IMG/VR virus record: IMGVR_UViG_3300032288_000390
Span: 1 to 29,218 of that record
Length of the DNA stretch: 29,218 bases
Origin: a virus
Reading direction: 5' to 3' (one strand)
Numbering within the stretch: position 1 is the first letter of the stretch; each line of letters starts with the position of its first letter. The position numbers and the translations under genes were made by a program. The notes beneath the pieces were generated by a model. That model searched no databases. It saw only the letters and a list, made by a program, of their open reading frames with translations, and was not told the origin of the DNA. Positions 7,752-29,181 of the stretch are shown here, in pieces.

Positions 7752-9989
7752 TTATCTTGGATACACCGCATCCACCCTTGTTCCAACTGCCAAACCTGTG
7801 CCAAACACAATAGATGTTCCGCTTGTAACTGTTACATCTGTGCCGTTTACCATTCTTACACCATTTACATACACGCTAATTTTTCCAGACGTATAACTTA
7901 ACGAGGTTGTAAATGTTGTTTGTGCCGCAGTTGCAGTAAATGAATCATATATCACGCCAGTTGCCGTGCCTGAGTATCCAGAATAACCAGAGTAGCCAGA
8001 TGTTCCAATGCCTGAGTACCCAGAATAACCCGATATACCAGAGCCAGAATATCCAGAGTACCCACTTATACCGCTTGCGCCATTTGTTCCATTTGTTCCT
8101 GAGTAACCGCTAATGCCTGACGCACCAGAGTAGCCAGAAATTCCGCTTGCACCATTGCTTCCGTTTGTTCCAGAAATTCCTGAGAAACCAGAATATCCGC
8201 TTGTTCCAACTGCGCCTGAGTACCCGCTATATCCACTTATGCCACTTGCGCCATTGCTTCCCGTGCCACCAGAGATTCCAGAGTAACCAGAAAACCCGCT
8301 TATTCCGCTTGCGCCTGAGTAACCAGATACACCGCTACCGCTAAAGCCTGAGTAGCCAGAGTAACCGCTTGCACCGCTATAACCACTTTGCGTATACATC
8401 ACTTGCGTTGCAGTCAAAATTACAGAAGGTGTTAATGGATATGTTCCATTACCAGCAATAGTTTCTATTTTTACATTTGCATTTGTTGTGTCCCAGAAAA
8501 GTTGAAACACATCACCAGCAGTAACATCCAAAACATAATTAACAGTTAAAACTTCAGATGAAAACGCGCTACCTTGTTTATCTGGAACGTCATAATGCGT
8601 ATTGCTATCAGCAACATTAGTTCCGTTTTTCTTTAACCAAACTTGCGTAGTTCCCAAAGCCGTGCTGGTGTTTGTGAACTGAATGGAATAGGTAATGCTG
8701 TAAGTGCCAGCATTAGTAAATTGCCATTGGCTTGCAGATATAAGAGTTACGCCATTGTTGCCAGCCGTGGTGTTTAGCGTTATAGCCGTTGGCGTATTGG
8801 CAGTTGTTGTTTGATTTGTTGTGTCATAGAAAGAACCATAAGCACCAACTGCGCCACCCAAACCAGCCGCACCACTAAATCCGCTTGTACCGCTATAACC
8901 CGATATGCCAGAGTAACCGCTAAAGCCAGACAGACCGCTTCCAGAAAATCCAGAGTAACCAGAAATGCCAGAGTAACCCGACCATCCGCTAACACCACTT
9001 CCAGAAAATCCGCTTATGCCTGATGCACCCGAGTAACCGCTTATTCCCGAATATCCGCTTATGCCAGACGCACCACTAAATCCAGAGATGCCACTACCTG
9101 AGTAACCAGAAATTCCACTAAAACCAGAATATCCGCTAATGCCTGACGCGCCACTCCAACCACTAACTCCGCTACCAGAGTAACCGCTAAAGCCAGATTC
9201 GCCAGAAAATCCACTTATGCCAGAGTCTCCGCTAAAACCAGAGATGCCAGACCAACCGCTTATTCCAGATGCACCGCTAAATCCAGAGATGCCAGAAAAT
9301 CCCGACCAACCAGAAACACCGCTACCTGAGTAACCAGAAATCCCCGACCAACCAGAAATGCCACTTGCGCCCGACCAACCGCTGACACCGCTTCCGCTGT
9401 AACCAGAGATGCCACTAAAACCTGACCAGCCACTAATGCCAGAAAATCCTGAGTAGCCCGATATACCGCTATCGCCTGACCAACCAGAAATGCCAGAGAA
9501 GCCAGAGTAACCACTCACTCCACTACCAGAGTAACCAGAAATCCCGCTATCGCCTGAGTAACCGCTTATGCCAGACCAACCAGATATTCCTGAGTAGCCA
9601 GAGTAGCCACTTAAGCCTTGGGGTCCGACAATTTGTCCCGCATCGTACCAAGCAGAACCATTCCATACCCAAAGATTGCCGTCTGCTGTGACGATGTATG
9701 CATCATTGACTTGATTGCCTGTTGGCGGTAAATCACCAACTGTTGGCACTTCGCCTTTGACGTTAATGCTTGTGCCTTGCTGACCGCTGTAACCAGAGTA
9801 ACCAGAGATGCCGCTATACCCTGATATGCCACTAAAGCCAGAGTATCCGCTTGTGCCTGAGGCACCGCTATAACCAGACCAACCACTGGGACCGATAATC
9901 CCGCGATCAATGTTTATAACTTGATTGGGCGTTGGCGTTACTTCAACGGCAATGTTGTTTTCGTTTACGACTGTGACTTGTATGGACAT
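7752..9989 (-). CDS. Collagen-like tail fibre with C1q-like and adhesin domains
   Basis: This 745-residue protein starts with a beta-strand N-terminus (residues 1-33) common on phage fibres, then three blocks of Gly-X-Ser triplets, where X is mainly Tyr, Phe, Trp, Ile or Ala. Between blocks 1 and 2 lies a short domain (about 72-125) with VWNGSAWYDAG. Between blocks 2 and 3 is a C1q/TNF-like jelly roll (about 380-534). A C-terminal beta module (about 675-745) has VYVNGVRMVNGTDV. Collagen-like stalks form trimers in other phage fibres; the C1q-like and C-terminal domains probably fold as trimers and contact the host. Proline is nearly absent and triplets are broken at regular places by an extra Gly-Ser. 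Confidence 0.85.
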   Translation of the reverse strand: MSIQVTVVNENNIAVEVTPTPNQVINIDRGIIGPSGWSGYSGASGTSGYSGFSGISGYSGISGYSGYSGQQGTSINVKGEVPTVGDLPPTGNQVNDAYIVTADGNLWVWNGSAWYDAGQIVGPQGLSGYSGYSGISGWSGISGYSGDSGISGYSGSGVSGYSGFSGISGWSGDSGISGYSGFSGISGWSGFSGISGYSGSGVSGWSGASGISGWSGISGYSGSGVSGWSGFSGISGFSGASGISGWSGISGFSGDSGISGFSGESGFSGYSGSGVSGWSGASGISGYSGFSGISGYSGSGISGFSGASGISGYSGISGYSGASGISGFSGSGVSGWSGYSGISGYSGFSGSGLSGFSGYSGISGYSGTSGFSGAAGLGGAVGAYGSFYDTTNQTTTANTPTAITLNTTAGNNGVTLISASQWQFTNAGTYSITYSIQFTNTSTALGTTQVWLKKNGTNVADSNTHYDVPDKQGSAFSSEVLTVNYVLDVTAGDVFQLFWDTTNANVKIETIAGNGTYPLTPSVILTATQVMYTQSGYSGASGYSGYSGFSGSGVSGYSGASGISGFSGYSGISGGTGSNGASGISGYSGYSGAVGTSGYSGFSGISGTNGSNGASGISGYSGASGISGYSGTNGTNGASGISGYSGYSGSGISGYSGYSGIGTSGYSGYSGYSGTATGVIYDSFTATAAQTTFTTSLSYTSGKISVYVNGVRMVNGTDVTVTSGTSIVFGTGLAVGTRVDAVYPR
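7966..8386 (-). repeat. Collagen-like coding repeat, block 3
   Basis: Nine-base coding units (Gly-X-Ser) repeat in degenerate form through this stretch, with two Gly-Ser breaks (GSGVS and GSGIS) and several GTNG/GSNG variants. The variety of synonymous Ser and Gly codons limits exact DNA repeats. Confidence 0.85.
8866..9626 (-). repeat. Collagen-like coding repeat, block 2
   Basis: This is the longest block, opening with GPQG and then Gly-X-Ser triplets with seven GSG(V/I/L)S breaks. The breaks are almost always followed by GWSG, GFSG or GYSG. Because the unit is nine bases long, several other reading frames also stay open here and produce spurious frames. Confidence 0.9.
9775..9897 (-). repeat. 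Collagen-like coding repeat, block 1
   Basis: A short Gly-X-Ser run near the N-terminus of the fibre, opening with GPSG and ending in GQQG. It follows directly on the N-terminal attachment domain. Confidence 0.85.
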
Positions 9990-20221: not shown

Positions 20222-20243
20222 GAAAAAGCCCCGAAGGGCTTTT
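20222..20243 (-). terminator. Intrinsic terminator after the tail tube gene (UUCG loop)
   Basis: On the minus strand a perfect 8-base stem AAAAGCCC/GGGCTTTT encloses a TTCG tetraloop and runs into TTTTTCT. It begins directly after the tail tube stop. The DNA is palindromic outside the loop, so the plus strand can form it too. It should let some transcripts stop after the abundant tube gene while others read through. Confidence 0.9.
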
Positions 20244-20244
20244 G

Positions 20245-20769
20245 TTATGTATTGTTTGACCAGCCGTAAGAGTTACCGCCTACTGGATGAATAACAAACT
20301 CAAATTTGCCTTCAGCAGTTGGAGACATATCCCATTTCAGACCGCCAACGCGACCATTAAATGCATACGCAACTGTGTTCGTGCCGTCATAGACTGCGAC
20401 AACATAAGTGCGGATGATTGTGCCGTTGTAGCCATCATCACGAATTAACAACTGCGCTGTGTCTGCGGGATTCCAAGGAGCAGTAATGCTCAATGATGTA
20501 ACTTGGTTTTGCGTAGTGATCTTTGCACCAGTACGCGCACCAGCAACGTTGTATGCGGCAAATGCATCGTCAGAACCAAATGGAGGTACTGCTTCAACAG
20601 GAACTTGAATGCCGTCAGTACCAGTACCGCCAGCGGGTGTGCCGACAATATCTGCTACTTGTGCTGTCCAAGTTTCTAGTTGTGTATCTGTTAATGCTGT
20701 GGGCGATGCGCCAGTTTGCATCCATAAGGTTGCTACGTATCCGGGTAAGACTTTATTAATGAGAGCCAT
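20245..20769 (-). CDS. Major tail tube protein
   Basis: This 174-residue protein resembles lambda gpV-like tube subunits: a start of INKVLPGYVATLWMQTG, a variable Gly/Thr-rich loop (about 41-56), and the beta domain SLSITAPWNPADTAQLLIRDDGYNGTIIRTYVVAVYDGTNTVAYAFNGRVGGLKWDMSP toward the end. Many copies stack to make the tail tube. A strong AAAGGA site precedes the ATG, and a strong terminator follows, fitting high expression. Confidence 0.85.
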   Translation of the reverse strand: MALINKVLPGYVATLWMQTGASPTALTDTQLETWTAQVADIVGTPAGGTGTDGIQVPVEAVPPFGSDDAFAAYNVAGARTGAKITTQNQVTSLSITAPWNPADTAQLLIRDDGYNGTIIRTYVVAVYDGTNTVAYAFNGRVGGLKWDMSPTAEGKFEFVIHPVGGNSYGWSNNT

Positions 20770-21571: not shown

Positions 21572-22240
21572 CTACATCACCAAAGGCTTGTATGGGCGTA
21601 GCAATGCGTGTACACCAAATGGGATTTCAGACTTCATGCCAACTGTGTCGCCAACTGTGGAACGTGTGTTGTACAGATGCGTTAACAACATTAATCCCGC
21701 TTGCTTTACCACTGGGTAACTTGCAAGTGGATTTGCATTCTGCGTATACGTTACAACGATTGGATTTGCAACTTGTTGGCTTAATTCATTTAATGCAACA
21801 TTCAATATGACGCGACTTCCCGTTGGGTCATATGAGTAATCAGTATTACTAATAGTGATTGGTACGGTGTTAGAACTACCATAGTAACGAACATTATTTA
21901 TTGTTACTGCTGGATAGCCTGTTACATCAACACCTGTTTCTGGCAAATCTAAATACAACGTTGTGTCATACATGCCAAAGTTTGCATAGTACACATTCCA
22001 TTGCGTAGAGAAAATTGCCATTCCAAGAATGTCCTCAATCGTCATGCGTACTGCAAGTTCAAGCGAGGACAAATATGTGTCTTGGCTTTCATCATCAAAC
22101 AAGTTTAATTGTTGTGTGATTTCTTCAAGCGTTAACCATGGCGTTGCAACATCACGCGAAATTTGTTCAAACCTTGCGTAGTTGTACGGGTTGCGCCCGT
22201 TTGAATAAAACGGGGCTAGGGTTTGATTTTCTACTGGCAT
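21572..22240 (-). CDS. Head-tail connector (gp6-like adaptor)
   Basis: This 222-residue protein has PWLTLEEITQQLNLFDDESQDTYLSSLELAVRMTIEDILGMAIF (about 34-77), the helical core of HK97 gp6-like connectors: 'lt.ee.k..lr.d...D..l..l...A...ie..lg'. A beta domain follows, and it ends KQAGLMLLTHLYNTRS, a last helix also seen in the family. It forms the ring under the portal. It lies 11 bases after the second capsid gene. Confidence 0.85.
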   Translation of the reverse strand: MPVENQTLAPFYSNGRNPYNYARFEQISRDVATPWLTLEEITQQLNLFDDESQDTYLSSLELAVRMTIEDILGMAIFSTQWNVYYANFGMYDTTLYLDLPETGVDVTGYPAVTINNVRYYGSSNTVPITISNTDYSYDPTGSRVILNVALNELSQQVANPIVVTYTQNANPLASYPVVKQAGLMLLTHLYNTRSTVGDTVGMKSEIPFGVHALLRPYKPLVM

Positions 22241-22251
22241 GTTTATTTGCC

Positions 22252-23274
22252 TTAGTCAACACCACGCACGCCAGCAAACGGGTCGCGTATTGTGCTGACC
22301 ATTCTTTTTTCACACCACAAAGTAATAAATCCTGGACTTGTCTGATCAAATGTTTGAATAGACATTTCTTCTACATCTGCAATTTGCAAAAATCTATTCC
22401 AGTTTGCCAGATAAACTGGGTATGCATCAGTTAAATATGGATTGATTACTACTGGTGCGCCAAAGATTGAACCTACTGCACCGCCATCATCTCTTTCACC
22501 TAGTTCCAAAAACTTGGGCAAACCTTGTTCGTCTGCCAAGTTACGCAAGCCTTTGATATAGGTTGGAGTCATATGCCATGCAGTTGTTGGTTGTCCCCAA
22601 TACTGCGCGGGCAAAGCATCAGCCAGAGCAACAACTTGTGCATACGTTGGCGCGTTATAACTTGTAGCAACTTGCAATATAGTATGAATACCATCTGTCA
22701 TTTGCGTACCAGAATCACCAAACGATGCATCGGTACTGTCGCCAAGATACATATCTAAGCCACGCAAGCCAGCAGTTGCGCCAGTTGTAGTAGTGCCAGA
22801 ACCCGCTTGGTCGTTGTTACGTGCCATTGAATAGGCTTCTGCTTGAGAAAATTCTAAAGTTAAATCTTGCATTAATTCTGCTTGCAAACCATTAATATCA
22901 TCGAGTGCGGCAATGCGAATAGGCAACTGCGCTGATAAAACACGGGTAGGCAAAACCCATGTATTTGTAGCCGTATCGGGCGTGCCCGTATTAGGCGTAA
23001 ATGTATATCCCCACGGGTCTGATTGCGTCAAAGCGTTACCAACTTTGGCAACAAATTGAACCGAGGACATGTTAGGTGTTTTAATTTGTAATGCACCCAT
23101 ACGGAAAGGGTTTGCAAAACGCAGAGCGGCAAACGCATCGTCAAAATATGTGCGACCACCAATTCCCGCGCCTGAACCAGTCAGGGTAGATGCTTCACGT
23201 AGATCAATTGTGACCTTACGATTTTCTTGTAGCGATTGCTTGATGCCGTCAATAATTTTTTGCGTTGCACTCAT
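22252..23274 (-). CDS. Second HK97-fold major capsid protein paralogue (no scaffold domain)
   Basis: This 340-residue protein is clearly related to the capsid protein encoded just before it: both have EASTLTGSGAGIGGRT, a P-IR-AALDDI-GL segment, a NNDQAG-T-TTG segment with GLRGL, and PGFIT--EKR near the end. It has only about 26 residues before the shared region, so it lacks the N-terminal delta/scaffold domain. A minor capsid form (for example pentons), a decoration of a mixed lattice, or an alternative capsid are all possible. AAGGAA precedes its ATG, and a hairpin lies between the two genes. Confidence 0.9.
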   Translation of the reverse strand: MSATQKIIDGIKQSLQENRKVTIDLREASTLTGSGAGIGGRTYFDDAFAALRFANPFRMGALQIKTPNMSSVQFVAKVGNALTQSDPWGYTFTPNTGTPDTATNTWVLPTRVLSAQLPIRIAALDDINGLQAELMQDLTLEFSQAEAYSMARNNDQAGSGTTTTGATAGLRGLDMYLGDSTDASFGDSGTQMTDGIHTILQVATSYNAPTYAQVVALADALPAQYWGQPTTAWHMTPTYIKGLRNLADEQGLPKFLELGERDDGGAVGSIFGAPVVINPYLTDAYPVYLANWNRFLQIADVEEMSIQTFDQTSPGFITLWCEKRMVSTIRDPFAGVRGVD

Positions 23275-23297
23275 TTTGATTCCTTAATAAAACAAAG

Positions 23298-23323
23298 AAG
23301 GGGAGGGTTTTATTCCTCCCCTT
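23298..23323 (-). terminator. Hairpin between the two capsid genes (possible attenuator)
   Basis: A perfect 9-base stem AAGGGGAGG/CCTCCCCTT with an 8-base loop sits five bases after the first capsid stop. On the minus strand it runs into CTTTGTTTTATT, an imperfect T-run, so partial termination is likely. On the plus strand the run is purer (CTTTTTATT), but no plus-strand gene needs it. Confidence 0.7.
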
Positions 23324-23327
23324 TTTA

Positions 23328-24689
23328 TTACGCTACATCGTAACCAGTTGCGGTAGAGCGATAACGAATGATAGAGAAGGGATCGACAACAGAAGTTGCC
23401 AAACGCTTTTCGCCATAGAACGTTATAAATCCAGGAGCCGTTTGTTCGTATCTACGAAGAATCATAGACAGGCGATCAACGATTGTGTGTCCGCGATTCC
23501 AATCACCAAAATACATTGGATACAAGGAAGTAGAACCACCACCGCCAACGCTAATTGGGCTATTCAAATAAGTATTGACAACTACGTCAAAGCCTAAAAG
23601 TTTACCAACAATGCCGTCATAAATTAGCGGTGACATACGCTCAAACACAGGAGTGCCGTTGTCATCACGCAAACCACGAATGCCAGCAAGCATTATTGGG
23701 TTGATGATAAAAGCGTTACCAGCATTCCAGTATTGTTGTGGCAAGTTATGGATGAATTGAATCAAGTCCAAATACGACACATTGTTTGTTGCAGTACCAC
23801 CATTGGTTGTGATCTGATCATAGGTTGCAATTTCGTGCAAGCCATCAGTAGATGCATAACCAGTTGTACCAAACTCAGCAGTAGAAATAGTTCCACCAGC
23901 ATAAGAAGCATTGTTGCCACCATACTGATTCAAACCACGCAAGCCGTTAGTACCGCCAGTTGATGTTGTAGTAGTGCCAGCCTGATCATTGTTCAAGATC
24001 ATTGACAAGCCTTCTTGTTGCGAGAATTCTTGCAACATGTCATCTACAACATTGGCTTCTAAACCATCAATATCATCAAGCGCGGCAGTACGGATTGGGA
24101 ACTGCACGTTAATGTCTTGCATGTTTAATTGCCAAACAGTGGTCGATTCAGTCGTTGGGTTAGGACCATCAGAGCGGTTGTTGTTAATTGCATAACCCCA
24201 AGTCGCACCAGCGTTGCCCGTTTTTGCTCTAAATTGATAGGTTGAACCATCAGTAGAAACGTTACGTGAAACACCGCGCATTGGGTTCATTAAACGCAAT
24301 TTGTGGAATACAGGGTCATACGCAGTACGACCACCGATGCCAGCACCAGAGCCAGTAAGAGTAGATGCTTCTGTCAAATATGCTTGATGCTCACTCTCGT
24401 CAGCCCACAATTTGATTTCGGTATGCAACTTAGTGCCACCTTGGTAGAAGCCTTTTAATTGCTCACGCACTTTACGGTTCACGTCACCGCGAACTGTTTT
24501 GTGAGGTGTGCGAATAAACTCAGGCACTTGAATAGAAGCAACTTTGGCTTCCAACGCAGTTACTTTATCTGCAAATTCTGCTTTAGCAATTTCGACAGAT
24601 GCAATAACTTCGGTTTTGATTTCTTCAATTTTGGATTCGTTTTGAGCGGCAATGCCGTCAATCTTTTCCAGTACTTTATCCATTGACAT
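23328..24689 (-). CDS. HK97-fold major capsid protein with N-terminal scaffold (delta) domain
   Basis: This 453-residue protein has a charged coiled-coil N-terminus (about 1-105: repeated Glu/Lys/Ala heptads, then a basic stretch) typical of the delta domain that acts as scaffold and is removed by the prohead protease. The HK97 fold starts near EASTLTGSGAGIGGRT (107-122) and ends PGFITFYGEKRLATSVVDPF. The cleavage point is probably near residues 103-110. AAAGGA lies six bases before the ATG. It follows the protease gene by 10 bases. Confidence 0.93.
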   Translation of the reverse strand: MSMDKVLEKIDGIAAQNESKIEEIKTEVIASVEIAKAEFADKVTALEAKVASIQVPEFIRTPHKTVRGDVNRKVREQLKGFYQGGTKLHTEIKLWADESEHQAYLTEASTLTGSGAGIGGRTAYDPVFHKLRLMNPMRGVSRNVSTDGSTYQFRAKTGNAGATWGYAINNNRSDGPNPTTESTTVWQLNMQDINVQFPIRTAALDDIDGLEANVVDDMLQEFSQQEGLSMILNNDQAGTTTTSTGGTNGLRGLNQYGGNNASYAGGTISTAEFGTTGYASTDGLHEIATYDQITTNGGTATNNVSYLDLIQFIHNLPQQYWNAGNAFIINPIMLAGIRGLRDDNGTPVFERMSPLIYDGIVGKLLGFDVVVNTYLNSPISVGGGGSTSLYPMYFGDWNRGHTIVDRLSMILRRYEQTAPGFITFYGEKRLATSVVDPFSIIRYRSTATGYDVA

Positions 24690-24699
24690 AGTATGTCCT

Positions 24700-25488
24700 T
24701 TATTTGATACGTTTAGATAGTGCTTCTGCTAACTCGCGTGCTTCAAACACAGCAAGCAATGCATCGGCTTCATTTACCACCGCAACAGGCTCACCCTGTA
24801 TTGGCGTTTCTTCCACAATCACTTTTGACGCATCACGCGTTTCCAAGATTTTGCGGAAAACCAAAGATGCGGTGGTCGCATCTTTCCTTGAGAAGCCCGC
24901 CTCACGCAAGGCTTTTTCAATATGTCGAGGGTTTAATTTTCCCTCTGCATCAAAGTATTCCAACTTCATTACTTCTGCGGATGGGTTGTTTGGATACATA
25001 ACAACGCTCACTTCTTGCAAACCGCCTTTAGTGATTTGGAAATATGCTTCATCACTATCGTCTGGCTCACCATCTGCATTTACATACATTGCTTCTTCCG
25101 CGTATGCGCCAACAGAAACACCGCCAAACATTTTTGGTGACTCTTTTAAAATTTGATATAGATCATTACCGCCAACTGTGTTTGTGTAGAGTCGACCTTT
25201 AGCAGTCATACCATCTTCATCAAACATGAATTCATTCCATTCACCCATGGGCATTCCCATGTCGTTATGATTTAAAAACATTGGTAATGGTTTGTCACCG
25301 CTTGCAAATTCTTTTGCCCAATCCATGAAGCCTTCGGGCTGGTAATTAAACTTGCGACCATCTGCGCCTTCGCGTGCGCCCCAAGTTGTAACGCGTGCTT
25401 CAATCAGTCCGCTTGGCTGGTCTGCCTCGTTTGCGTTTTCCCGCAGTTGTATTTGTGCTTCGCAAATCAGGTTCAGATTTTTGTTCAT
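24700..25488 (-). CDS. Prohead maturation protease
   Basis: This 262-residue protein matches the HK97 gp4-like serine protease family. His74 in LPMFLNHND and Ser125 in MFGGVSVGAYA are the likely catalytic pair, followed by GGLQEVSVVMYPNNPSAEV (155-173), the conserved strand. The C-terminal part has LNPRHIEKALREAGFSRKDA, a helix found in many of these enzymes. It cuts the delta domain from the capsid protein after assembly. GGGGTGA precedes its ATG at 25488; the first 89 bases overlap another frame. Confidence 0.9.
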   Translation of the reverse strand: MNKNLNLICEAQIQLRENANEADQPSGLIEARVTTWGAREGADGRKFNYQPEGFMDWAKEFASGDKPLPMFLNHNDMGMPMGEWNEFMFDEDGMTAKGRLYTNTVGGNDLYQILKESPKMFGGVSVGAYAEEAMYVNADGEPDDSDEAYFQITKGGLQEVSVVMYPNNPSAEVMKLEYFDAEGKLNPRHIEKALREAGFSRKDATTASLVFRKILETRDASKVIVEETPIQGEPVAVVNEADALLAVFEARELAEALSKRIK

Positions 25489-25618
25489 TGATCACCCCAT
25501 TATGAATAGATTGATTATCGTCTTGTATCTTGTGGGGCTTATCTATGTCGGGCAGTATAACCCGAGGTTTCTTAATTTGTGAAGTCAAATATGCAAGTGC
25601 TTTTTTTAACTGATTCAT
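25400..25618 (-). CDS. Small basic protein with AT-hook-like end, overlapping the protease gene
   Basis: This 72-residue frame starts in a TAATG overlap with the portal stop and ends 89 bases inside the protease gene in another frame. The protein has a helical start (MNQLKKALAYLTSQIKK), a polar middle, and the end GKRKRGRPAKRTD, where GRP flanked by Lys/Arg resembles an AT-hook. It fills the 129-base gap between portal and protease, which otherwise would be empty, and the coupling favours a real gene. DNA binding is inference. Confidence 0.6.
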   Translation of the reverse strand: MNQLKKALAYLTSQIKKPRVILPDIDKPHKIQDDNQSIHNGVINEQKSEPDLRSTNTTAGKRKRGRPAKRTD

Positions 25619-27012
25619 TAGGTTGCCCCTATGTTCATTTTTCGGGTCTGACTACCACCGCCACCGCCCGTATCTTGTGGACTACTTCCGTTCATTGGTT
25701 CTGCCTGACCACCGCTTGCGCAAAGTTCATCGCCACCATCCAACGTTGCCATATTCATATATATGCGTGCTTCATTGGGCGTCATAATACCGCTTTTTAC
25801 GCCAGCCGTGACAAAATTCATTTGATCAAGTGCCGCGCCTTTTAAGAAATCCTTGGTATCAAAGCGAATACACAGATTAGGGTAACCACGGAAAAGATGC
25901 TGTTTTAACTTTTGCTCAATGTTTATTACAGTCGGATACATCACAGTTTTATAGAACTCATCCAACATTGTTTGGGTATTATTAAACTTGCCGTCTGTAA
26001 TACCTAGCATTGCTGGTGGCACGCCAAACAATCCGCATATGCGTCTCATTGTTTGCATTTTTAAATTTGCCGCGTCTGCATCTTGTAGCGTTAGCATCTT
26101 TACTGACTCGTATGTCATACCTTGATCTAGCAACATGCCTTGTCCCGCTTTGCTTGGGTCAGTTGCTCGACCGCCTGTCATAGCGTTCCAAGTTTCTTTA
26201 ATGCGCGATGCAATCTCTTTATATTTTGCGTCTGGTATTACTTGATCAGTTTTAAATATGCCAGACGGCTTTGCCCCGTTTTGCATAATAAAGTTGGCAT
26301 ATAAATCTATATCTTGATCAAGTGCTACTAATTCTGTTGCCAAAATTGCCTTGTTAAAACCAGACGAACCTTGCCATGCCGCTTCTTTTATGTGCATTAC
26401 TTGCCAATAATCAAGCGGTTGATCTTTGCTAAAGCCATAGGAAGGCGAACTTAAAACGTATTGGGGATAACGCGTACCAGACAAGCGTACTGTTACAAGC
26501 GTTGCATCTAAGTTATACATTTCAATTGGCGTTGCATTTATATCTTTTTGCTTGTCGCGCCACCAAAGCGTAAATGTCTCACCAGCCAAGTCTTGCCACA
26601 TCATCCATTGATACCAAAATTCATAAAGACTTTGAAAATTGTTTGGGTTGTATATCAAACTTTGAACTTGTTTTGCTTTTGCTTGATCGCGCTTGCCAAC
26701 GCTTGGGTCTGAGCAAGCATCTACAAATGTCCCGTCTGGTTGCTCTGCCATAACTTTGACCGAGCATTGCGCCAATGCGCGTGCCTTAATTCCTACGCAT
26801 GACATGATTGTCGAATTGCGCGTAAGCATTGACATGTCGACCACGCGACCAGCAGTTGTCGTGCTTGCAGTTGTTACATATAGCAGTTGTTGTGACGGCT
26901 GATCTTTTTGTGTGCCAATGACAACTTGATTGCCTAATTGCAACTGCCCAAGTACAACGTTTGACTCTTTATTGACGTTAGTATTGCGCTTGAAAATATC
27001 TAATAAAGCCAT
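25618..27012 (-). CDS. Portal protein
   Basis: This 464-residue protein is an HK97-type portal (Phage_portal family). Visible features: MLTRNSTIMSCVGIKARALAQCSVKVM (about 62-88), PNNFQSLYEFWYQWMMWQDLAGETFTLWWRD (about 122-152) and the stem/crown segment RRICGLFGVPPAMLGITDGKFNNTQTMLDEFYKTVMYP (about 335-372). The C-terminus is Gly/Ser-rich. Twelve copies form the DNA entry ring. It lies between terminase and protease as in HK97. Confidence 0.93.
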   Translation of the reverse strand: MALLDIFKRNTNVNKESNVVLGQLQLGNQVVIGTQKDQPSQQLLYVTTASTTTAGRVVDMSMLTRNSTIMSCVGIKARALAQCSVKVMAEQPDGTFVDACSDPSVGKRDQAKAKQVQSLIYNPNNFQSLYEFWYQWMMWQDLAGETFTLWWRDKQKDINATPIEMYNLDATLVTVRLSGTRYPQYVLSSPSYGFSKDQPLDYWQVMHIKEAAWQGSSGFNKAILATELVALDQDIDLYANFIMQNGAKPSGIFKTDQVIPDAKYKEIASRIKETWNAMTGGRATDPSKAGQGMLLDQGMTYESVKMLTLQDADAANLKMQTMRRICGLFGVPPAMLGITDGKFNNTQTMLDEFYKTVMYPTVINIEQKLKQHLFRGYPNLCIRFDTKDFLKGAALDQMNFVTAGVKSGIMTPNEARIYMNMATLDGGDELCASGGQAEPMNGSSPQDTGGGGGSQTRKMNIGAT

Positions 27013-27043: not shown

Positions 27044-28714
27044 CTAAAACGCACGAAATCCAAAACTACTTGATACAAACGGATGGTCAAGTGAACAATG
27101 TGCCGCAATAATCATTGCAATTATTCCGTCAACTTTTGCAGACTTATCGGCTTCGTTCTTGCGCACTTTGATATTTCCGTTTACGTCTGTGTAGACTTCG
27201 CAATTGCCTAATTGCCAACCAACAAACGGGTTGCCGTCATGCTTGATTTGTTTGTTAAGAATTAATTTTTCTACATACTTGCTTGGGTTGTTTAAGACTG
27301 CCATGCCTTGACCTACCTTCTTTACGGGTAAACCCGCATCGTGTAGACGCGCTACTAAACTTGCCGCGTTGTATGCATCGTAACCAATCTCTTTAACATC
27401 ATACTTGTTGCATATGTTGTTTAATATGTGATCGCTAATTTCACGATCATCCATGACGTTGCCTTCTGTGAGTTTCAAGATACCGCTTGCAATCGCTACT
27501 TGGAAAATATCTTGATAATGCTTTGGCACTAATTGCAAACTTTCTTCTGGCAAAAAGAATTGCCATTCTGCGTGGTAGTCCAATTCGCTATATCGTTTAA
27601 GCGTACAGACTGCGTTCAAGTCTCGCGTTGCCGCCAAGTCAAAGCCCAAGAACACCGCCTCTGGTTCTTGCTCACGTGGCAATATCCAGCATGACGGGTC
27701 ATCCCAATTTGCTCGATCAAGCCATGCCGCATTTGCAGACACCCATACATTTAATGTCTTACAAAGAAACTCATTAAGTGCCGCTGGCTTGTGTTTGGCT
27801 TCCTCTGCGCGTGCAGTAATAGCATCTTCAAAGACGCTAATGCCGTGCATCGGGTTTGCTTTTGCCCAATTCTTTGGCTCTCGCCAATCATCGCCCAAAT
27901 CTAAGCCGTAAAGCAAACCAAACCATCGAGGATTGTCCGTTGCTTCACCGCGCAAAATAGATTGCACCATCGACAAATCTTCATAAAATTTTGTGTCTTT
28001 GGTAAACGATGCAGTTGTAATATATATGCGCAACGGGTTTTGCCGTGCCACCATACCAGAATGTAATACCTCGATGGAGTTGCGGTCGACAATTTGTGCC
28101 GCCTCATCGACAACTACGCACGATGGATTCTTGCCGTCTCCAGATTTTTTTGTGTCGCGTGATAACGCTTTAAACATTGACTGCGTGTCACCGCGTTTGC
28201 CAATTGTGTATTTGCTTGGCGTAAACAAATCTGCTAAATCTTTTGGCATGGCATCAATGAAACCTTTTGCCGCATCAAACACAATCGTTGCTTGCTCTCG
28301 ATTTGTTGCCAGCGTAAAAACTTCTGCGCCAGCCTCGCCACAAAGTAACTCATACAAAGTCAATACTGCCGTCAATGTTGATTTGCCAGCCTTGCGCGGG
28401 ATAAACAGTATTACATCTGTGACCATGCGTTTGTTTAAATCTTTTTTACTGCGAAAACCGTAGACTGCGCACAGCAAAAGAATTTGAAACGGCTCTAATA
28501 CAACTTGCTCACCCGCTTGGGGTCCCTTGGTGTGTTCAAGCGTAGATGCAAACTGCAATACATGAATTGGAAATCTTTCGTCAAAGATGTATTCCCACTC
28601 TTTGTTTTCGAGTTGGTTTAAAAATCTTTGGCACGCAAGTCTTACATCATTGCAAACGTCAATCTCGTTTTTAGCAACTGCGTGCGCGTATGCAATGCCG
28701 TCTTGCCAATTCAT
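27044..28714 (-). CDS. Terminase large subunit
   Basis: This 556-residue packaging motor belongs to the HK97/Terminase_1 type. The ATPase has Walker A PRKAGKST (106-113) and Walker B CVVVDEA (Asp203, Glu204). The RNase H-like nuclease shows FLGFDLAATRDLNAV (Asp359), EIGYDAY (Asp446) and a late Asp in a DGIIAMIIAAH helix. Full length for the family. Its start overlaps the small subunit stop as ATGA (28711-28714). Confidence 0.95.
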   Translation of the reverse strand: MNWQDGIAYAHAVAKNEIDVCNDVRLACQRFLNQLENKEWEYIFDERFPIHVLQFASTLEHTKGPQAGEQVVLEPFQILLLCAVYGFRSKKDLNKRMVTDVILFIPRKAGKSTLTAVLTLYELLCGEAGAEVFTLATNREQATIVFDAAKGFIDAMPKDLADLFTPSKYTIGKRGDTQSMFKALSRDTKKSGDGKNPSCVVVDEAAQIVDRNSIEVLHSGMVARQNPLRIYITTASFTKDTKFYEDLSMVQSILRGEATDNPRWFGLLYGLDLGDDWREPKNWAKANPMHGISVFEDAITARAEEAKHKPAALNEFLCKTLNVWVSANAAWLDRANWDDPSCWILPREQEPEAVFLGFDLAATRDLNAVCTLKRYSELDYHAEWQFFLPEESLQLVPKHYQDIFQVAIASGILKLTEGNVMDDREISDHILNNICNKYDVKEIGYDAYNAASLVARLHDAGLPVKKVGQGMAVLNNPSKYVEKLILNKQIKHDGNPFVGWQLGNCEVYTDVNGNIKVRKNEADKSAKVDGIIAMIIAAHCSLDHPFVSSSFGFRAF

Positions 28715-29181
28715 TGCGCCAAGGGTCCTCGTAAAAACTGCGCGACAGGACTATTTTCTTCCGACTTGCCAGCAGACAAGCGACTGCGCGGAGTAAGTCC
28801 TAACTCGTTCATGATTTGAATGATCAATGTCATAGTCTTGTTGCGCACAGTCAAATAGGGATTGGGTCCGATAGTCTGTCCGTTATTAAACCGCGTGATG
28901 ATGCCGTTGGATTTAATATTTTTTGTACACCTAATATATGTCTCTATGTGATCGGCAAGCATTGCAAGCGTATGTTTGTCTTGATCGTTGCCAATGCCGT
29001 ATACGTCATAAAGAAAATTGGAAGTTTCTTCAATGAATTTGTCTTTGTCCCATGCGTCTGGGTTGTCGACCCATTCGGCTTTTGGAATGCGTTTTTTTAG
29101 GTTGTCGGGCATAGACGCGGGCATGCCTTTGCGCGGTGTTGTGCCGTCAACCAAGTGCAGTTCTGGGGGTTTTTTGTTCAT
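28711..29181 (-). CDS. Terminase small subunit, P27 family
   Basis: This 156-residue protein has an N-terminal PPELHLVDGT segment and C-terminal GPNPYLTVRNKTMTLIIQIMNELGLTPRSR (105-134), the hallmark of P27-type small terminases (Terminase_4). It recognises packaging DNA and regulates the large subunit. No clear ribosome binding site lies before the ATG at 29181, and the frame is open upstream to the window edge, so a start beyond 29218 cannot be excluded. Confidence 0.88.
   Translation of the reverse strand: MNKKPPELHLVDGTTPRKGMPASMPDNLKKRIPKAEWVDNPDAWDKDKFIEETSNFLYDVYGIGNDQDKHTLAMLADHIETYIRCTKNIKSNGIITRFNNGQTIGPNPYLTVRNKTMTLIIQIMNELGLTPRSRLSAGKSEENSPVAQFLRGPLAQ

Follow-up and report, generated by a model that had tools for sequence, protein, structure and literature searches.

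Hexons and pentons are rarely made of different proteins; among phages T4 is the example, its large genome making this affordable, and phages of about 40 kb (HK97 and P22, for instance) save genome space with one protein for both roles (PMC13185644, a 2026 review). In T4, gp24 is a duplicate of the gp23 gene that has specialised for the vertices (PMC9958956), where it is present in 55 copies. The T4 genes follow the order portal-protease-scaffold-23-24. A division of labour between two capsid sisters is well known only from this much larger phage, and among the papers that we searched for tandem HK97 capsid genes, none described the pair analysed here.

Here we analyse a head operon with two capsid genes, mcp1 and mcp2, that shares features with both T4 and HK97. 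As in T4, adjacent genes for HK97-fold paralogues lie downstream of the portal and protease genes, whereas the scaffold, the separate protein gp22 in T4, is fused to MCP1, and an S78 protease takes the place of T4 gp21. As with HK97 gp5 and the RcGTA capsid protein, the HK97 fold is accompanied by an S78 protease gene just upstream and by the portal/TerL/TerS order, and MCP1 has a fused N-terminal domain that would correspond to the delta domain of the HK97 protein. In HK97 and RcGTA, however, one gene provides both hexons and pentons, while two capsid genes are present here.

Two HK97-fold capsid paralogues in one head operon

The window, meaning the whole stretch of DNA that was analysed, is an IMG/VR virus record of 29,218 bases. 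Open reading frames and profile matches revealed a minus-strand head operon in the standard order TerS, TerL, portal, S78 protease, MCP1, MCP2 and head-tail connector (Table 1). The first-pass annotation of this DNA had proposed two HK97 capsid genes that are paralogues in one operon. Both ORFs are present on the minus strand, with mcp1 transcribed first, and BLASTP aligned the two proteins at 41% identity over 343 aa (216 bits, E = 3e-71), compared with 27.7% identity between T4 gp24 and gp23. This E-value rules out chance or low-complexity similarity.

Table 1. Coordinates of the head-operon features and of the probable tail-tube gene in the window
Feature	Position	Strand	Basis
mcp1: major capsid protein of the HK97 fold (453 aa), coiled-coil scaffold domain (delta-like) fused at its N-terminus	23328-24689	-	Pfam/PHROG and AlphaFold2/Foldseek
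mcp2: paralogous capsid protein of the HK97 fold (340 aa), proposed as a minor or vertex component of the shell	22252-23274	-	BLASTP, PHROG, AlphaFold2/Foldseek
Propeptide/scaffold part of MCP1 (residues 1-107), up to the predicted site YLTE↓ASTLTG	24369-24689	-	MCP2 homology onset, invariant E107; cleavage predicted
Short propeptide of MCP2 (residues 1-27), up to the predicted site DLRE↓ASTLTG	23194-23274	-	invariant E27, motif; cleavage predicted
Intrinsic-terminator-like hairpin, AAGGGGAGG-AATAAAA-CCCTCCCCTT + CTTTGTTTTA, between mcp1 and mcp2	23298-23323	-	hairpin search
Prohead serine protease (Peptidase_S78), predicted cutter of both MCPs	24700-25488	-	PF04586, 2e-9
Portal protein	25618-27012	-	PF04860, 1e-59
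Terminase large subunit	27044-28714	-	profile matches
Terminase small subunit	28711-29181	-	PF05119
Head-tail connector/adaptor, directly 3' of mcp2, no hairpin between	21572-22240	-	profile matches
Probable major tail (tube) protein	20245-20769	-	identity inferred from position and size

MCP1 matched the Pfam family Phage_capsid (PF05065, 1.6e-29) and, by sequence, the RcGTA capsid protein (E = 6e-4). The window MCP2 had no match in the Pfam profile search and matched the PHROG_10 major head protein (1.7e-13), and its orthologues matched PF05065 at 1e-14 to 1e-22. The AlphaFold2 model of MCP2 (pLDDT 71.5, pTM 0.73) retrieved the RcGTA and HK97 capsids as its top Foldseek matches, and the weak MCP1 model (pLDDT 60.7) gave the same fold matches. 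By profiles and fold together, both proteins belong to the PF05065-type HK97-fold capsid proteins. Divergence between MCP1 and MCP2 was not concentrated in the A-domain; the sequence thus offers no pentamer-versus-hexamer signature, and domain-wise divergence was dropped as a marker of pentamers. MCP2 had no detectable homology to T4 gp24 (profile E = 1.2), and gp23 was not among the matches listed at E ≤ 10. A T4-like split would therefore be convergent, and MCP2, which we do not file as a gp24 family member, may work like gp24.

Two further features of the window were observed. A 72-aa ORF between the portal and protease genes (25400-25618, minus strand) ends in a basic, AT-hook-like KRKRGRPAKR tail. 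The most GC-rich stretch (~50%; 7752-9989, minus strand) encodes a 745-aa tail-fibre-like protein that matches several tail-fibre and collagen-like PHROGs.

A short putative propeptide and a conserved cleavage-like site in MCP2

AlphaFold2 predicted the N-terminal 107 residues of MCP1 to be helical (helices 3-52, 66-83 and 98-111); together with a conserved putative cut site, this region makes MCP1 a candidate for a fused-scaffold (delta) capsid protein, a type in which the phage protease removes an N-terminal coiled coil of ~100 aa. The coiled coil is present in MCP1 and absent from MCP2. In MCP2, alignments and AlphaFold2 revealed that the shared motif is preceded by about 27 conserved residues, which comprise a helix and a strand. 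The BLASTP similarity between the two proteins begins abruptly, exactly at LREASTLTGSGAGIGGRT / LTEASTLTGSGAGIGGRT (LTE/LRE-ASTLTGSGAGIGGRT). Because a conserved cleavage-like motif sits where this similarity begins, MCP2 appears to carry a truncated propeptide of 27 residues, compared with 107 in MCP1, rather than none, and the propeptide is predicted to be removed by cleavage. The first-pass annotation had given a scaffold to the first protein only, which stands for the coiled coil (107 residues, earlier put at about 105), but its description of MCP2 as beginning almost at the mature start and as lacking a scaffold of its own was overstated, given the short conserved propeptide. T4 also has a shortened second propeptide (65 versus 10 residues; PMC9958956).

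At the similarity boundary, all distinct MCP1 proteins (232/232) contained [LMIVYF]-x-E↓[A,S,D,T,Q] and all distinct MCP2 proteins (237/237) contained [LVIF]-x-E↓[A,N,S,T], where the arrow marks the putative cut; in the alignments, the boundary glutamate was invariant (E107 in MCP1, E27 in MCP2). The boundary region of the single-MCP outgroup phages resembled K↓A or other sequences. HK97 is cleaved after K103, in contrast to the conserved putative [LMIV]xE↓A site seen here, and since the best-known S78 protease, HK97 gp4, cuts after lysine, cleavage at E↓A by the present enzyme is a prediction. The T4 cut sites are of the L-x-E form (gp23, FLTE↓A; gp24, LLRE↓S) and resemble the MCP1/MCP2 site; T4 gp21 and giant-phage proteases cleave after glutamate at short motifs (PMC5694885). 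That MCP2 conserves this putative protease site would be accounted for most simply if the protein were present in proheads.

Age, retention and selection of the capsid pair

The comparison covered seven IMG/VR scans and the isolate P19250A. Both genes were found in 368 loci of the IMG/VR relatives, with mcp1 upstream in all, some contigs having entered the locus counts twice under different locus ids. The 32 single-gene loci (23 with MCP1 only, 9 with MCP2 only) were each cut by a contig end, with less than 250 nt remaining downstream in all 23 of the former and less than 450 nt upstream in all 9 of the latter; no true exception to the pairing occurred among the scored loci. Both genes were complete in 314 loci, which together gave 239 distinct mcp1/mcp2 pairs. 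A search of genome contigs for single-copy or prophage sister lineages gave only 6 contigs, all labelled as MAG parts.

In an 89-row tree that included MCP1 and seven single-MCP phages, MCP2 formed one clade (support 100/100) and the single-MCP phages formed the outgroup (100/100), while MCP1 was not resolved as monophyletic against this distant outgroup, its branches being long. The MCP1/MCP2 split is older than every sampled lineage, in agreement with an old duplication common to the related phages. Across 898 pairs, the median dN/dS was 0.126 for MCP1 and 0.185 for MCP2. MCP2 is intact and under purifying selection, and it evolves faster than MCP1. The dN/dS values and universal retention rule out a decaying duplicate, so the first-pass annotation does not founder on clearly decayed mcp2 copies in relatives.

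The carriers of the pair are small freshwater phages of a large family, which comprises hundreds of contigs, the longest mostly 36-39 kb, compared with 169 kb for T4. P19250A (KX815270), a Methylophilaceae phage with a host of the LD28 clade, carries both genes in the same order, at 60% and 56% identity to those of the window. Its second capsid copy is annotated 'hypothetical protein', and its MCP2 propeptide is longer, with extra residues before DVNE↓A. The literature places Venkman (MT375522; L091) in a genus-level cluster with P19250A, but the mcp1/mcp2 module is absent from it, with no tblastn match among the listed records at a threshold as loose as E = 10. The capsid module of Venkman is a different one, a podovirus-like set of scaffold and MCP for which homology to MCP1 or MCP2 was not detectable.

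The mcp1-mcp2 junction and variation in MCP2

The hairpin between mcp1 and mcp2 is GC-rich and is followed by a T-rich run; in relatives it lies at the same place with a changed sequence. In a strict test on distinct 3' flanks, a hairpin followed mcp1 in 79/107 flanks and the probable tail-tube gene in 10/92, and none followed TerL, portal, protease, mcp2, connector, head-closure or tail-terminator genes. Most of the 28 mcp1 flanks missed by this test carried a G-rich hairpin with fewer T's. T4 likewise has a strong hairpin, GGGAACCTTCGGGTTCCCTTTTTT, between genes 23 and 24. Single-MCP phages also carry a hairpin 3' of their MCP gene, so it was ruled out as a duplication-specific signal and is either older than the duplication or unconnected with it. 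Its position between the genes puts mcp2 beyond a terminator that follows MCP genes in general, on the side where expression would be low; this suggests lower MCP2 expression rather than a vertex location and bears only indirectly on a minor MCP2 stoichiometry. The other terminator hairpin in the window, AAAAGCCCTTCGGGGCTTTT on the minus strand (20224-20243), lies just 3' of the probable tail-tube gene. Homing endonuclease ORFs occur in the mcp1-mcp2 junction of L248 (GIY-YIG-like) and L388 (HNH-like), comparable to segD between T4 genes 23 and 24.

An insert of about 65 aa was found in MCP2, and never in MCP1, at 17 loci (13 distinct proteins). Flanked by the KTGNA and NPW motifs in what is presumed to be the E-loop, it resembles a domain of the tail-fibre families PHROG_38233 and PHROG_21413. 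The insert loci include L180, L184, L185, L187, L188, L190, L191, L193, L194, L292, L296, L297, L301 and L391; the insert is what sets L185 apart from L178, to which it is close in other respects. At 13 loci (L132, L133, L138, L289, L306, L324, L339, L340, L382, L389, L393, L397 and L398), an extra N-terminal PHROG_2859 domain of about 95 aa and unknown function (EARKGLEWRKEF.RGGTEVGVARARDI) lies upstream of the putative MCP2 cut site. Comparison of L045 (9400-10450) with L048 (2130-3170) revealed replacement of mcp2 alone (61% identity), with identical MCP1 and flanks of 98-100% identity. Gene swaps were counted for the connector in 29/158 cases and for mcp2 in 16/183; swapping is not unique to mcp2, because the connector gene is often swapped too.

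Discussion

We propose, with a probability of about 0.62, that MCP1 forms the hexamers and that MCP2 is a minor processed shell protein, most likely forming pentamers, a vertex placement that we infer. An ancestral HK97/RcGTA-type capsid gene would have duplicated once, before the radiation of the phage family. MCP1 would have retained the fused coiled-coil scaffold, driving shell formation and forming the hexamers that make up the bulk of the shell, and MCP2 would have lost the coiled coil while keeping a short propeptide and a cleavage-like site. Made in smaller amounts behind the terminator, MCP2 would enter the shell through co-assembly with MCP1, most likely as a pentamer-forming vertex protein, of which a T=7 head would hold about 55 copies. 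Within the prohead, the S78 protease would cut MCP1 and MCP2 at the homologous hydrophobic-x-E site, so that both mature proteins would start with the same ASTLTGSGAGIGGRT arm. The first-pass annotation had suggested co-assembly at pentons, as with T4 gp24. The intergenic terminator, the cleavage-like site that MCP1 and MCP2 both conserve and a gene order like that of T4 favour the penton role, in which the vertex position itself is a proposal. MCP2 resembles gp24 in being an adjacently encoded paralogue of the major capsid protein with a shortened, putatively cleaved propeptide ending in the same motif.

The HK97-fold and cleavage-site evidence for MCP2 would also fit a mosaic lattice, in which MCP2 is a processed shell protein mixed into hexamers or placed at other special sites, for example around the portal vertex. 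The exchange of MCP2 alleles independently of MCP1 in L045 and L048 shows an interface that tolerates variants, and MCP2 alone accepts the E-loop insert, which would also suit such a lattice. We consider it unlikely, since lower expression and a homo-oligomeric role suit pentamers better, every allele swap would risk a mismatch at the MCP1-MCP2 interfaces within mixed hexamers, and the best-characterised shortened capsid paralogue, T4 gp24, is located at vertices. From the swapping of mcp2 among near-identical phages and the recurrence of a tail-fibre-type domain in the MCP2 E-loop, one might also imagine that the vertices, or another lattice class made of MCP2, are exchangeable surface modules, dedicated capsomers on which these small phages would display domains that interact with hosts or particles; this is a speculative suggestion and decidedly unlikely.

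MCP2 could instead be an assembly factor or nucleator, acting for example in portal-vertex seeding or head size and gone from mature heads. The direct adjacency of mcp2 to the connector gene without an intervening hairpin would agree with this, as would the PHROG_2859 domain that cleavage would remove from the propeptides of some relatives, but purifying selection on the whole HK97 core and the kept mature N-arm are as expected of a lattice component, and we regard such a role as very unlikely. The 41% identity and common motifs, with the faster evolution of MCP2, might finally be read as signs of a redundant or alternative capsid gene, interchangeable with MCP1, condition-specific or decaying. 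With 0 losses in 368 testable loci, a coiled coil never regained by MCP2 as judged from lengths and N-termini, and MCP2 standing as a long separate clade, this is extremely unlikely.

If MCP1 and MCP2 do divide the shell into hexamers and pentamers, the family would represent an independent gp24-like hexon/penton split and a counter-example to the economy rule for phages of about 40 kb. The recruitment of a scaffold-less capsid paralogue to one capsomer class would become testable, as would the question of whether the layout of truncated propeptide, shared E-site and intergenic terminator evolves repeatedly, and many genes now listed as 'hypothetical protein' could be named.
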